From Schlesneria sp. DSM 10557 (lineage in GTDB: Bacteria; Planctomycetota; Planctomycetia; Planctomycetales; Planctomycetaceae): DNA of 64,000 nt. The position numbers and the translations under genes are program-made. The stretch is from the NCBI RefSeq assembly GCF_041860085.1, contig NZ_CP124747.1:3286001-3350000 (forward strand), given 5' to 3'. Positions 8,079 to 38,254 of this stretch are shown here, piece after piece (position 1 is the stretch's first letter; each line of letters begins with the position of its first letter). The notes below the pieces were generated by a model, which made no database searches, was not told the DNA's origin, and saw only the letters and a program-made list of their open reading frames with translations.

Positions 8079-9110
8079 ATGGAATATCGACAACTGGGTG
8101 GCTCGGGGTTCAAGGTACCGGTACTAAGCCTGGGCACCGGAACCTTCGGGGGTGGCGGCCCGCTGTTCAAAGCCTGGGGGGCGACCGATGTCGCTGAAGC
8201 CCGGCAGCTTGTTGACATCTGCCTGGCCGCCGACCTGACCATGTTCGACACGGCCGATGTCTACTCACAAGGGATGGCAGAAGAAATCCTGGGCGAGGCG
8301 ATCAAGGGGCGACGAGACAAGGTCATCATTTCGACCAAGGGGACGTTTCGCACGGGTGTCGGTCCCAACAATCTGGGATCCTCGCGGCAATATCTGATCC
8401 GGGCCGTTGAAGCGAGCCTCAAGCGATTGGGGACCGACTACATCGACCTGTATCAGCTCCACGGCTTCGACGCGATCACCCCGATCGATGAAGTCCTGCA
8501 GACACTCGACGGGTTCGTGAAAGCCGGAAAAATCCGCTACATCGGCTGCTCGAACTTTTCCGGCTGGCATCTGATGAAGTCGCTGGCCCTCTCGGAAAAA
8601 TACGGCCTCACCCGTTATGTGGCCCATCAGGCCTATTACTCACTGGTCGGTCGCGACTACGAATGGGAACTGATGCCGCTGGCTCTCGATCAGAAGGTCG
8701 GAGCGGTCGTCTGGAGTCCCCTCGGTTGGGGACGCCTCACCGGAAAAATCCGACGAGGAAACCCGCTCCCCGCATCCAGCCGACTCACCAGCAAAGTCGC
8801 GCTCGACGCCGGACCGCAGGTGCCCGAGGAATATCTCTACACGGTCGTCGACGCACTACAGGAAGTCGCGAATGAAACGGGAAAAACAATCCCCCAGATC
8901 GCACTCAACTGGCTGCTTCAGCGTCCTACGGTCGCCACGATCATCGTCGGCGCACGAAACGAAGAACAACTGAAGGAGAATCTCGGTGCGGTCGGCTGGA
9001 ACCTGACCCGGGAACAGGTCGCGCGACTCGACGCTGCCAGCCAGACACCACTGGCTTATCCTTACTGGCATCAACGCGGTTTCGCGGAACGAAATCCACC
9101 TCCCGTGTAA
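8079..9110 (+). CDS. Aldo/keto reductase
   Basis: NAD(P)H-dependent oxidoreductase of the TIM-barrel AKR superfamily, 343 residues. It begins MEYRQLGGSGFKVPVLSLG. The catalytic Asp and Tyr are visible in FDTADVYSQGMAEEILGEA, the catalytic Lys in KVIISTKGTF, and the catalytic His in DLYQLHGFD. The cofactor-binding end IIVGARNEEQLKENLGAV is also present. An AGGGGAG ribosome-binding site precedes the ATG. Cytoplasmic; the substrate cannot be predicted. It lies between a DUF1549/1553 gene and a DUF1501 gene on the same strand. Confidence 0.93.
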   Translation: MEYRQLGGSGFKVPVLSLGTGTFGGGGPLFKAWGATDVAEARQLVDICLAADLTMFDTADVYSQGMAEEILGEAIKGRRDKVIISTKGTFRTGVGPNNLGSSRQYLIRAVEASLKRLGTDYIDLYQLHGFDAITPIDEVLQTLDGFVKAGKIRYIGCSNFSGWHLMKSLALSEKYGLTRYVAHQAYYSLVGRDYEWELMPLALDQKVGAVVWSPLGWGRLTGKIRRGNPLPASSRLTSKVALDAGPQVPEEYLYTVVDALQEVANETGKTIPQIALNWLLQRPTVATIIVGARNEEQLKENLGAVGWNLTREQVARLDAASQTPLAYPYWHQRGFAERNPPPV

Positions 9111-32291: not shown

Positions 32292-33728
32292 ATGTTTGAT
32301 ATTCCCATTCTTCGCTTCGGTCAGACCTACGAGTCAATGGAAAAACAACCGGTCGTGCACTTCGACACGGGGGAACCAGTGGCGCAGCTCCATCAGGCCA
32401 CCGGAGCCATGGTCAAACTGGACCTGAAGAAATCACAGAAAGCCCGCGAGGCCCTGCGATCACTGTCGATCGCGCAACTGATCGGCATTTGCAAGTCCGC
32501 AGCAAAGCTCTATCTGGAAGAAACCCTTCCGTGCGGCAATGGGTCGCTCTCACCCGAAGAATTCTGTCGAATGCAGTCCGCCACCACGGGACTTCCCGAG
32601 CACATGTGCGCGACGAACATGCGCAAGAACGCATTCGTCCTCGGACACATGGACGAAGTTCTCGACGCACTGACACGCGGCCTTCCCTACGAGATTCTTG
32701 AAAAGGGATACGGAAAAGAATCACGGGGTGTCATGGTTTCCTTCCAGGCGACCACTCCCGTTTTCGGTATGGTGCTGCCGAATAACTCACCCGGCGTTCA
32801 CACGCTGTGGCTGCCTGCGATTCCGATGCAGATCGGGCTGTGCATCAAGCCCGGCTCACAAGAATTCTGGACCCCTTATCGAATCACGGAAGCCTTCTTC
32901 AAAGCGGGACTGCCGCGCGAAGCCATTTCGGTCTATCCCGGTGGCCACGATGTCGGGGGGGCGGTCATGACCGACTGCCAGCGAGCCATGATTTTCGGTG
33001 GCCAGAACACCGTCGATCAGCACGCGGGAAATCCTCGCATTTCCGTCCACGGCCCCGGCTTTTCCAAGATCATTCTCGGCGACGACGTCGTAGACCGTTG
33101 GGAAGAGTACATCGATCTGATGGTCGACAGCGTCATCGCCAACAGCGGTCGAGGCTGTATCAATGCCAGCGGAATCTGGGCTTCGCGCCATACCCGTGAG
33201 ATTGCCGACGCGGTCGCACAGCGTCTGGGCCCCATCGCACCACTCCCTCCGAACGACCCGAAATCGGCTCTTGCCGCATTCACCACCCCTGGTGTGGCTG
33301 ACGCGATGAATGCTCAGATTGATGAAGGTTGCCAGGCCGAGGGTGTCACGGAAGTCACTGCCAAGTATCGTCAGGGAAGCCGACTCGAAAAGCGAGAACG
33401 GTGCGACTACCTCCGTCCTACCGTTGTGCATTGCACCGGCCCCGATGTCCCCCTGGCGAATACCGAGTATATGTTCCCGTTCGTCTCGGTTGTCGAATGC
33501 CCGCAGAACAAGATGCTCAGCCAGATCAAACAGACTCTGGTCTGTACCGCCCTGACCGAAGATCCCAAGTTCAAGCAGCAGTTGCTCGACGCGACCAACA
33601 TTGACCGCTTGAACATTGGCAAGGTGAAGACCATGCAACTGAACTGGCTTCAGCCGCATGAAGGGAACATCGTCGATTTCCTCTTCCGGAATCGCGCGTT
33701 CCAGGATACTCCACCCGCTGCACACTGA
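32292..33728 (+). CDS. Aldehyde dehydrogenase-superfamily protein, possible acyl reductase
   Basis: A 478-residue protein of the aldehyde dehydrogenase fold. PNNSPGVHTLWLPAIPMQIG replaces the usual cofactor-side motif, SGRGCINASGIW carries the putative catalytic Cys, and NTEYMFPFVSVVEC stands where EEIFGPV usually lies. It is distant from ordinary aldehyde dehydrogenases and may work in reverse as an acyl reductase of the LuxC type. It follows an adenylate-forming ligase gene on the same strand. A downstream PQQ-type propeller gene starts 49 bp later. The fold is fairly sure; the direction and substrate are inference. Confidence 0.82.
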   Translation: MFDIPILRFGQTYESMEKQPVVHFDTGEPVAQLHQATGAMVKLDLKKSQKAREALRSLSIAQLIGICKSAAKLYLEETLPCGNGSLSPEEFCRMQSATTGLPEHMCATNMRKNAFVLGHMDEVLDALTRGLPYEILEKGYGKESRGVMVSFQATTPVFGMVLPNNSPGVHTLWLPAIPMQIGLCIKPGSQEFWTPYRITEAFFKAGLPREAISVYPGGHDVGGAVMTDCQRAMIFGGQNTVDQHAGNPRISVHGPGFSKIILGDDVVDRWEEYIDLMVDSVIANSGRGCINASGIWASRHTREIADAVAQRLGPIAPLPPNDPKSALAAFTTPGVADAMNAQIDEGCQAEGVTEVTAKYRQGSRLEKRERCDYLRPTVVHCTGPDVPLANTEYMFPFVSVVECPQNKMLSQIKQTLVCTALTEDPKFKQQLLDATNIDRLNIGKVKTMQLNWLQPHEGNIVDFLFRNRAFQDTPPAAH

Positions 33729-33777
33729 GGCGGGCGAAGTCAGTCGTGTAACGTCACTGTCTCATAACAGGATTCCC

Positions 33778-35088
33778 GTGAGAACCACAGAATTTTGTCG
33801 CGTCTGCTGGTGTGCCCTGTTCTGTTGTCTGAGCATGGCGCTGGCGTCGATGGCCAGCGCCGGGGAAAAAGGGATTGCCGACTTTCCCCGGCTCTCGGCA
33901 GAGAATGACTGGCCCTGGTGGCGAGGTCCACAGCGGAACGGGATCGCCCGTAGCGCACCGGTTCCGACAACATTCAGTGAAACGCAGAACCTGACCTGGA
34001 AAGTCCCCGTACCCGGCCGGGGACATGCATCGCCCACAGTCGTCGGGACCCGCATTTTTCTCGCCACGGCCGACGACAAACAGCAAGTGCACTCGATCCT
34101 GGGGTTTGATCGGAGAACAGGGAAGCAGCTCTGGAAGACAGACGTCAACCAGGGCGGTTTCCCCGAGAAAAATCACGAGAAGAACACCGAAGCGACACCC
34201 ACCATCGCCAGTGATGGCGAGCGGGTGTTCGCGACGTTCTACCATCATGACAAGATCGAGTTACTGGCTCTCGATTTCGACGGTCAGTTGATCTGGAAGA
34301 AGGATGTCGGCCCGTTCTATCCGAAGATGTACGAATACGGATACGCCCCTTCACCGATCCTTTATCAGGACTCGGTGATCGTCGCAGCCGAATATGATGG
34401 TGATGCTTCGTTCCTCACGGCCTTCGACCGGAAGACCGGCGAACAACGCTGGCGAGCCGCTCGACCACGAATGGTGTCGTATTCGTCCCCGGTCATTGGC
34501 AATGTCGCGGGCAAGGATCAACTGCTGATCAGCGGAGCGCTCAAAGTCAGTTCCTACGATCCCGTCGATGGCAAGGCCCTGTGGTCAATCGAAGGGACGA
34601 CCGCCGCAACGTGCGGAACAATGGTCTGGGAGGGAGACACCGTGTTCGCCAGTGGCGGATACCCGAAATCCGAGACCATCGCCGTGAAAGCGGACGGCAG
34701 CGGCAAGGTCGTCTGGAAGAACAACCAGAAGTGCTACGAGCAATCGATGCTCGCCCACAAAGGGTATCTCTACGCTCTGACCGACAACGGCATTCTATAT
34801 TGCTGGCGGGCGTCTGACGGCAAGGAGATGTGGAAAGAGCGGCTGAAAGGTCCGATCAGCGCTTCTCCCGTGCTGGCGGGGGATCACATCTATTGGGCGA
34901 ACGAACTCGGCACGATGTACGTCTTCCGTGCAAACCCCGACAAGTTTGAACTGGTCGCTGAAAATCAGATCGGCACAGACTCGTTCCCCAGCCCGGCAAT
35001 CTGTGGCGGCCAGATCTTCCTGCGAGTCGCCACCGGGACGGGGACGGAGCGTCAGGAATGGCTCTATTGCTTTGCCAGACAGGACTGA
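33778..35088 (+). CDS. Exported PQQ-like beta-propeller protein
   Basis: A 436-residue protein with an N-terminal export signal (CWCALFCCLSMALASMASAG). The start is GTG 33778 with AGGA upstream. Repeated propeller blades carry W-type motifs: GFDRRTGKQLWKTDV, ALDFDGQLIWKKDVG, AFDRKTGEQRWRAARP, SYDPVDGKALWSIEG and RASDGKEMWKERLKG. DWPWWRGPQRNGIA near the start is common in planctomycete propellers. There is no dehydrogenase PQQ-site pattern; it is probably a structural or binding propeller outside the cytoplasm. It may be transcribed with the ligase and reductase genes. Confidence 0.9.
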   Translation: MRTTEFCRVCWCALFCCLSMALASMASAGEKGIADFPRLSAENDWPWWRGPQRNGIARSAPVPTTFSETQNLTWKVPVPGRGHASPTVVGTRIFLATADDKQQVHSILGFDRRTGKQLWKTDVNQGGFPEKNHEKNTEATPTIASDGERVFATFYHHDKIELLALDFDGQLIWKKDVGPFYPKMYEYGYAPSPILYQDSVIVAAEYDGDASFLTAFDRKTGEQRWRAARPRMVSYSSPVIGNVAGKDQLLISGALKVSSYDPVDGKALWSIEGTTAATCGTMVWEGDTVFASGGYPKSETIAVKADGSGKVVWKNNQKCYEQSMLAHKGYLYALTDNGILYCWRASDGKEMWKERLKGPISASPVLAGDHIYWANELGTMYVFRANPDKFELVAENQIGTDSFPSPAICGGQIFLRVATGTGTERQEWLYCFARQD

Positions 35089-35144
35089 ACACCCGCAGGG
35101 CCATTTCCAGTCGGTCGCTGTCAGCAGGCCCCCAATGTGATTTC

Positions 35145-35201
35145 CTCGCCACAGTGAAACTCACTCGCCACAGTGAAACTCACTCGCCACAGTGAAACTC
35201 A
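35145..35201 (+). repeat. Perfect tandem repeat, 3 x 19 bp
   Basis: Three identical copies of CTCGCCACAGTGAAACTCA stand head to tail between the convergent propeller and RND genes. Confidence 0.95.
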
Positions 35202-35272
35202 GGAGTCCAGCGACGTTCAGCAGGTAGCATCACGGACAGCATCAGGTGCGGGAGTAACACTTCTGTCGTGGA

Positions 35273-38254
35273 TCAGGCCACACGGGCCGCCTGATTCAGT
35301 CGGTTTATTGCAGAGCTTTCGACTGAGACGGGGGCCGCATCCCGATCGAACTCCGTGTCGACCACACCTTCTCCACGAGACCCCTTCGTCGACAAGCCTC
35401 GATGACGTGAGAACAGGCACAGAATCGAAGGGAGCATAATCAGCGAGACAAACATGCACGATCCGACCCCGATCGTCAGAACGGCTCCCAGACTGTACAG
35501 ACCGCGGTGGGCCGAGATCATCATGCTTCCAAAACCGACCATCGTCGTGGTGGACGTCATCACGATGGCGTTAATCGTACTCGGCGACGGACAGTACACT
35601 TCATTCGGCTTCGAATGAAAGTCATGCATGATGTGCACCCCATTATCCACGCCGATTCCGAGAATGAGGGGCAGGATGATGAGGTTCGCCGGATTGAGGG
35701 GAATGTTGAGGATCACCAGCACACCACAACTGATTCCCAACCCCACCATCGGTGGAATCATCGCCAGTAACGTATCCATGACGGCCGTCCGCCCCAGGAA
35801 GAGCGAGAGGACCAGGGTCATCACAGTAAAGACCGCCAGAAGGAGGCCGGGGTTGTACTGCAACTGCCCCGTCACCATCAGAATTCCCGCGATGAGGGCC
35901 ATCACCGCAGGGGGGAAGAATGTCCAGAACAATTGATTTCGGGTAGAAAAGTCCATGACCAGCGTGACGAGAATCACACCGAGTGCATACAACGCACAGA
36001 TCTCATAGCTTCGCTTGATCTGACGAGCTGCTTCGTAATTCTGCAGTGGCGTTCCTGTCGCGTCGGCATCCACTGTCCGAACTTCGTGCACGAATCGCTG
36101 CAGCGGTTCCATATCCCAAATTTGATCCTTGGGAAAAATCTGCAACAGCCATTTTCCCTGCGGACTGACAAATCGCGACCTCAGTTCGATCGGCAGATCG
36201 TCTGCCGTCACGGGCTCGGGATTCGAAGCCGAAGCGATGGCCTGAAACTGTGCCAGAAGGGCGTAGGCCATGCGATACTGGAATTCGCCCAGGAACTCCA
36301 TTTGTCGCTGTAGCGACTCTTCATCCAGTGCATTCAAGATCGAGTCGATCGAACTGGCAATCCGTTGCGATTCCGGGTCACGACGCGACTTGAGCAGATC
36401 ATAGAGTTTTTCCAGGGCTCGACCATTCGCGGCGGGCATGGCCGCCTGGGGCTCAGGAGGTGCCGCAGGAAGTTGAGACAACTGTGCATGGTAGCCCTGA
36501 ATGAGCAGCCGTTTGGCCTCGGGCAGGGATTCCGGGATGCGTGTCGCAAGTTCCTGTACTTCGCGAACAGTCGGCAGCTGTTCAAACTTCTTTTTGAGTT
36601 CTCTCGCTTCCTCCGGAGAGTCAGCAATGGAAAGGGCATACAGCAGCGAATGCTTGGAAGACTCGAAAATGTGGTTCTGTGCTTCGACCGATTCCAGTCC
36701 TTCAGCCTGAAGGTGCAGGAGATTATGATCATAAACGACGAGTGGCTTCGGTACTGGCCCTGACCAGTCGAAGCTCCGATAACCGATGAAACCCAGGAAG
36801 ACTGCGGACGCCGTGAGGATGACCCAGGGATAATTCAAAATGGCGGCACGCAGAGTTCGTGCTTCGAACGGCTTGGGCAGTTCCAGCAGTTCTGTCCGAC
36901 GATCCGCCACGGCGATGGCGGCGGGAAGAACGGTGAACGCCGCCAGTGCACACAGCAGAATGCCTCCCCCGGCGATCACTCCCAGTTCCGCAACCCCCAG
37001 GAAGTCGGTCATCGTGGCGCAGAAAAACGCCAGCGATGTGGTCACGGCCCCCGTCACAACACCGACGCCGACACCCTCGGTCGTCGCCACAATCGCCTCG
37101 ATCAGACCCATTCCCTGATGCCGTAGCTCCAGATAGCGGGACAGGATATGCACGGCGAAGTCGATTCCAAGCCCCATCAACATCGCGGCGAACGACACTG
37201 ACAGGATGTTCAGGTGGCCAATCATCAGCGTCGTGTAGCCGAATGACCAGGCCATCCCGACCGCAAGCATAAACAGTCCGAGGAATGGATGTAGAAATCC
37301 ACGGAAGCCGAGAAACAGCAGAATGGCGACACCCACGAAGGAAATGACCGAGGCGGTGGTCGAGTCAGCCATCGACCGCCGCATTTCGTCATTCTCGAGA
37401 ACCGAGATCCCGGTCAGCAGGAACTTCACATCCGGGAACTTCTGCTGGGCGTCAGCCAGCAATTTCCGGACAGCGTCGATGGCAAGAGTGGGTCCCTCAA
37501 AGGACCCCTTGTCCTGCACGGCCGAAGCCATGACGAACCCCATCGTCCCTGTCTCATTCAACATATAATCAGACTGCTTCCCCTGCTCTTCCATCTCGTC
37601 CGGCACGGACAGAATTTCAGGCCAGGGATTCGTAAAGCGGTCACCGTCCTGCATCGTGTTCTGCAAACTTGTGATGAGCAGGTCCGTATGATGCAGGAGT
37701 TGTTTTTCCATTTCCGGATCGTTTTTGACCCGAGACAATTGGCTTTGAAGACGTGTGACAACACCATCAAGCGTAATCAGACCCCAGTTGCCGTTGAGAA
37801 TGGGTCGGAACGACTCCAGTCGTTCCAGACCGTTGGCGAGGGTATTCGCGGGGAGGTACTGCAGCCCCTTCTCTGGAAGTTTCCCCGGATCAATCCGATA
37901 GAGTACGTTACTGAACAACTTCGGTTGACCGGCCAGACGGGAACCGACATCGTCGATGGCTTCCTTCAGCGCCTCGCTGCGATTGCTTTCGATGACAACG
38001 ATGATGTCGTCGAATTGACCGAAGTCCTTGGTGTAATTAATCCAGCGCTGATAGAATCCCGCCTCGGGATTGATCAGATCGGACCGGTCTGTCTTGAAAT
38101 TCAGTCGCTGCGTCGTGAGATAGACGCAAAACACGGCCGACAGGACGACGATCCCGATTGTCCACCAGGCGTGACGAGCACACAAACCGGTCAAGGAACC
38201 AAGTGATTCCGTGAGAACGGATTTTGAACGGGGTTCTTTGACTTCTTCCGACAT
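35273..38254 (-). CDS. RND/MMPL-family transporter, HpnN-like
   Basis: A 993-residue inner-membrane protein. The first membrane segment is at about residues 30-48. Two groups of about five membrane segments follow (around 305-480 and 745-960), each after a large soluble domain. This is the two-times-six arrangement of RND/MMPL transporters. The closest type I recognise is the hopanoid-associated HpnN family (FGQFDDIIVVIE early, SFAAMLMGLGIDFAVHILSRY and PLILGIGVDNGVHIMHDF in the membrane halves). It probably moves a lipid between membranes. No hopanoid genes are nearby, so the substrate is open. It is convergent with the upstream propeller gene. Confidence 0.9.
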   Translation of the reverse strand: MSEEVKEPRSKSVLTESLGSLTGLCARHAWWTIGIVVLSAVFCVYLTTQRLNFKTDRSDLINPEAGFYQRWINYTKDFGQFDDIIVVIESNRSEALKEAIDDVGSRLAGQPKLFSNVLYRIDPGKLPEKGLQYLPANTLANGLERLESFRPILNGNWGLITLDGVVTRLQSQLSRVKNDPEMEKQLLHHTDLLITSLQNTMQDGDRFTNPWPEILSVPDEMEEQGKQSDYMLNETGTMGFVMASAVQDKGSFEGPTLAIDAVRKLLADAQQKFPDVKFLLTGISVLENDEMRRSMADSTTASVISFVGVAILLFLGFRGFLHPFLGLFMLAVGMAWSFGYTTLMIGHLNILSVSFAAMLMGLGIDFAVHILSRYLELRHQGMGLIEAIVATTEGVGVGVVTGAVTTSLAFFCATMTDFLGVAELGVIAGGGILLCALAAFTVLPAAIAVADRRTELLELPKPFEARTLRAAILNYPWVILTASAVFLGFIGYRSFDWSGPVPKPLVVYDHNLLHLQAEGLESVEAQNHIFESSKHSLLYALSIADSPEEARELKKKFEQLPTVREVQELATRIPESLPEAKRLLIQGYHAQLSQLPAAPPEPQAAMPAANGRALEKLYDLLKSRRDPESQRIASSIDSILNALDEESLQRQMEFLGEFQYRMAYALLAQFQAIASASNPEPVTADDLPIELRSRFVSPQGKWLLQIFPKDQIWDMEPLQRFVHEVRTVDADATGTPLQNYEAARQIKRSYEICALYALGVILVTLVMDFSTRNQLFWTFFPPAVMALIAGILMVTGQLQYNPGLLLAVFTVMTLVLSLFLGRTAVMDTLLAMIPPMVGLGISCGVLVILNIPLNPANLIILPLILGIGVDNGVHIMHDFHSKPNEVYCPSPSTINAIVMTSTTTMVGFGSMMISAHRGLYSLGAVLTIGVGSCMFVSLIMLPSILCLFSRHRGLSTKGSRGEGVVDTEFDRDAAPVSVESSAINRLNQAARVA

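Follow-up and report, generated by a model that had tools for sequence, protein, structure and literature searches.

Why do three identical copies of a 19-bp sequence lie head-to-tail between two converging genes of Schlesneria sp. DSM 10557, and do they have a function there? A preliminary description of the 64-kb stretch of DNA analysed here (the window) had reported a perfect 3 x 19-bp tandem repeat between converging genes and had attributed it to recent slippage or to a protein-binding array.

The array and its neighbouring genes

The coordinates and the identity of the copies were borne out. Positions 35145-35201 hold exactly 3.0 units of CTCGCCACAGTGAAACTCA on the forward strand with a 100% match, and both the sequence itself and a tandem-repeat scan place copy 1 at 35145-35163, copy 2 at 35164-35182 and copy 3 at 35183-35201; no partial fourth copy was found at either edge. 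The three-copy array is far above chance expectation: with up to three mismatches allowed, the unit matched the 64-kb window three times, each time at an array copy, while 100 dinucleotide shuffles of the window gave a mean of 0.02 matches and none of them reached three. The array also has the top score (114; next 57) among the 15 tandem-repeat rows of the window.

Its setting agrees with the preliminary description as well. The array lies in a gap of 184 bp, delimited by ORF ends at 35089-35272, across which an ORF on the plus strand (33658-35088) faces an ORF on the minus strand (35273-38254). The left neighbour encodes a PQQ_2/BamB-like beta-propeller protein (PF13360, E 1.5e-35), and its start codon is uncertain, as the mechanical call overlaps the preceding ORF at 32292-33728. 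The right neighbour encodes an MMPL-family (RND-type) transporter (PF03176, E 1.7e-20). Two mechanical ORFs touch the array, 34856-35164 on the minus strand and 35173-35439 on the plus strand; the array was rejected as coding sequence, as both lack a Pfam match and 19 bp is not a whole number of codons. In addition, a consensus scan for sigma-70-type promoters found no promoter-like site in 34900-35500.

The unit in the genome, in the family and at related loci

The host genome is a single contig of 7.07 Mb that is 99.78% complete, and at up to two mismatches it holds the unit nowhere else. At three mismatches there were four further matches compared to one for the unit read backwards as a control, and all four lie within long open frames (stop to stop, 461-674 codons). 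We then turned to 150 genomes of the family, which took in the host genome and 11 of the 14 other genomes of the genus. At up to two mismatches, the unit occurs at 15 places in 14 other genomes, none of them in tandem. As a negative control, the backwards unit gave 11 matches in the same 150 genomes plus 21 in a single outlier, G117. Since the two counts are similar, single matches of the unit outside its own genome are at about chance level. Taken together, the searches of the host genome, the family genomes and the open frames give no support for a dispersed repeat or a family of binding sites. The 21 matches in G117 suggest a dispersed repeat in that genome that resembles the control by coincidence.

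The surroundings of the array were compared with related loci. An 801-bp stretch around it matched in some part all 15 genus genomes (the host included). Matches outside the host genome number 23; all of them miss the array (query positions 446-502), and they either lie in coding parts or end within one base of the stop codon. The two neighbours occur together in no fetched locus outside the host genome, with fetched loci extending 1.5 to 5 kb per side and some ending at contig ends, and in the genus genomes G003, G006 and G011 the PQQ and transporter genes were matched on different contigs. The first 400 bp downstream of related genes were collected as 52 flanks (50 distinct) from 13 PQQ loci of the genus, 2 paralogues that are more distant, 33 loci on named contigs and 4 transporter loci. 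The 33 named contigs with relatives of the PQQ gene are labelled as planctomycete groups or genera in 31 cases, two of them Schlesneria, and only as 'bacterium' in two. Neither an array of the unit nor any other three-copy array was present in these 52 flanks downstream of PQQ or transporter genes, four of which hold 8-9-bp repeats in 2.1 to 2.7 copies. The single unit was absent from all 52 as well, the best match having 5 mismatches, and thus no conserved element was found at either neighbour gene in this set. An exact copy of two consecutive units is present in just four of 212 fetched loci, which are those covering the place of this array. As the full-length identity of the PQQ protein among its relatives is about 73% at most, the flank comparison speaks to distant species only and not to conservation over short times.

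Tandem duplications across the genome

In a first sample of 2.06 Mb from the host genome, made up of the window and 100 further stretches and equal to 29% of the genome, TRF returned 86 rows, 81 of which have a period of at least 10. Among the TRF matches listed, which have 1.9 or more copies, a match of at least 85% and a period of up to 60, the array at 35145-35201 scores highest outside mechanical ORFs and sixth overall. Exact tandem duplications with a period of 12-60 gave 19 rows (13 coding, 5 in convergent gaps and 1 in a divergent gap) at 15 distinct places, since a single array accounts for four rows in L101 and another for two in L071. As a negative control, one shuffle of the 2.06 Mb within 100-base blocks contained none. 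Since 15 places contrast with none in the shuffle, exact tandem duplications are a normal product of this genome. A further 0.8 Mb yielded six more (4 coding, 1 convergent, 1 divergent), and no other perfect array of at least three copies was found outside called ORFs in either sample. At L071:10999-11101 the host genome also has 5.4 tandem copies of a 19-bp unit (97% match), inside a mechanical ORF; as 19 bp is not a whole number of codons, that ORF call may be wrong.

The distribution of the exact duplications offers a weak hint that, in this genome, those outside coding sequence gather between converging genes. Of the 372,717 gap bases in both samples together (2.86 Mb), 81,101 (22%) belong to convergent gaps, and 6 of the 8 non-coding exact duplications fall within such gaps (binomial 0.002 with the array at 35145-35201 and 0.007 without it), although the numbers are small, the gap classes rest on mechanical ORFs and it was the first sample that had prompted the idea. 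Besides the array in the window, the convergent cases in the host genome (G000) are L099:5630-5663, L100:14439-14470, L133:18553-18590, L153:1985-2012 and L208:12487-12527. The bias was predicted beforehand for the second sample of 0.8 Mb, where one of the two non-coding duplications was convergent compared to a convergent share of 25% of gap bases; this sample by itself shows no bias. In 33 loci from relatives, neither of the two classed non-coding duplications was convergent (share 18%), and a third lies at a contig edge and is unclassed. In the looser TRF list, 8 of the 18 classed non-coding rows were convergent, with 3 more at stretch edges unclassed. That new short tandem duplications favour convergent gaps, with the array at 35145-35201 as the furthest-grown case seen, is improbable. 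Head-on transcription, with breaks and end joining by two Ku-like proteins, could bring about such a preference. Two Ku matches (PF02735) exceed the cut-off in the host genome, in L171 and L172 (G000:C1:1028719-1029216 and 4730738-4731289), which suggests that non-homologous end joining may operate there; nothing links it to the array at 35145-35201. In L038, from a contig labelled Schlesneria sp., a 16-bp unit is repeated perfectly in 3.1 copies at 8425-8474, in a gap between same-strand ORFs, and thus such arrays arise outside convergent gaps too.

Origin of the array and other readings

The array is very probably a young, lineage-specific minisatellite that lacks a dedicated function and arose by duplication and slippage. 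Recent slippage, the first of the two readings in the preliminary description, fits because the copies are identical, the genome holds no further match at up to two mismatches and the 52 flanks compared lack the unit. As for the order of events and the mechanism, we infer that a 19-bp stretch of the convergent gap would have been duplicated once, and that a third copy would then have come from unequal exchange between the identical copies or from slippage during replication. The array would have been tolerated, and would persist, because the gap is non-coding and, as far as seen, contains no promoter. With exactly 3.0 units, no microhomology is visible at the array edges; by hand calculation, a homology-free event with random flanks gives clean edges in 9/16 of cases, so that the clean edges are compatible with such an event and do not prove it. 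Duplication followed by slippage in DNA that would be under no constraint is sufficient to explain the array.

Minisatellites have units of roughly 10-100 bp in head-to-tail order with highly alike copies, and the array, with 3.0 copies of 19 bp at 100% identity, has these features. Like bacterial minisatellites or VNTR loci, it consists of short, identical tandem copies in non-coding DNA, and the known kind of locus to which it most likely belongs is an ordinary intergenic minisatellite. CRISPR arrays and dispersed repeat families share with it a repeated short unit, but the array has no spacers and its unit no other close copies in the genome. No literature on this locus was among the matches listed. 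In the excerpt of PMC6749651 used here, satellites in prokaryotes are defined as at least four repeats of 10-200 nucleotides, a number of copies that the array does not reach; the same excerpt mentions intergenic satellites in several prokaryote species, and its table lists Rhodopirellula baltica with the value 29, which we take as the number of satellites.

The second reading in the preliminary description, a protein-binding array, found no support and is very unlikely. In such an array the three units would be bound by a regulator, a nucleoid protein or, as in iterons, an initiator, perhaps via the inverted repeat AGTGA-AAC-TCACT (5-bp arms, 3-base loop) that each unit-unit junction holds. 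The identity of the three units would suit such a role, and a binding site retains a small chance because of the junction repeat, which 174 of 5000 shuffled units equalled or bettered, the four genome matches at three mismatches against one for the control, and the rarity of the array. However, those four matches all lie in long open frames, closer copies of the unit (up to two mismatches) are absent from the genome, the 52 flanks of related genes lack it and the sigma-70 consensus scan saw no promoter-like site in 34900-35500. Moreover, a helical turn of DNA is about 10.5 bp, and thus 19 bp is a non-integer number of turns. The iterons of plasmid or phage origins, which measure about 19-22 bp, are likewise direct repeats in a row and similar in size, but they adjoin a replication initiator gene, and Pfam scans of eight ORFs near the array found neither an initiator nor a regulator. 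The array also differs from them in being chromosomal: the 184-bp gap matched none of 50,697 phage records, its only match in 72,556 plasmid records covers 22 bases outside the array (E 0.5), and viral contigs held no exact match of the two-unit string. These searches give no support for a mobile or viral origin.

An element acting at the RNA level, either a bidirectional terminator or a 3'-end stabiliser for both converging genes, would be in keeping with the position of the array between two gene ends and with a short hairpin at the unit junctions. The RNA of the gap folds no better than shuffled sequences (z +1.44; 187 of 200 shuffles reached an equal or better fold), no intrinsic terminator (a GC-rich stem with a T run after it) was found within the gap, and a comparison of the gap with Rfam gave nothing at E values up to 1. 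The sole terminator-like site in 34900-35500, where 0.5 are expected by chance, is 35476-35458, inside the transporter ORF. On the folding, the terminator scan and Rfam, a terminator or structured RNA was rejected, and an RNA-level role is very unlikely. An assembly or sequencing artefact in the copy number is equally hard to credit: although the three copies rest on one assembly of the species, that genome is nearly complete on its single contig, and the 57-bp array is shorter than single reads, which on any common platform can span it.

A young minisatellite at 35145-35201 could serve in strain typing if its copy number varies. By itself the array matters little, and its sole wider point is the weak hint concerning convergent gaps in this genome.
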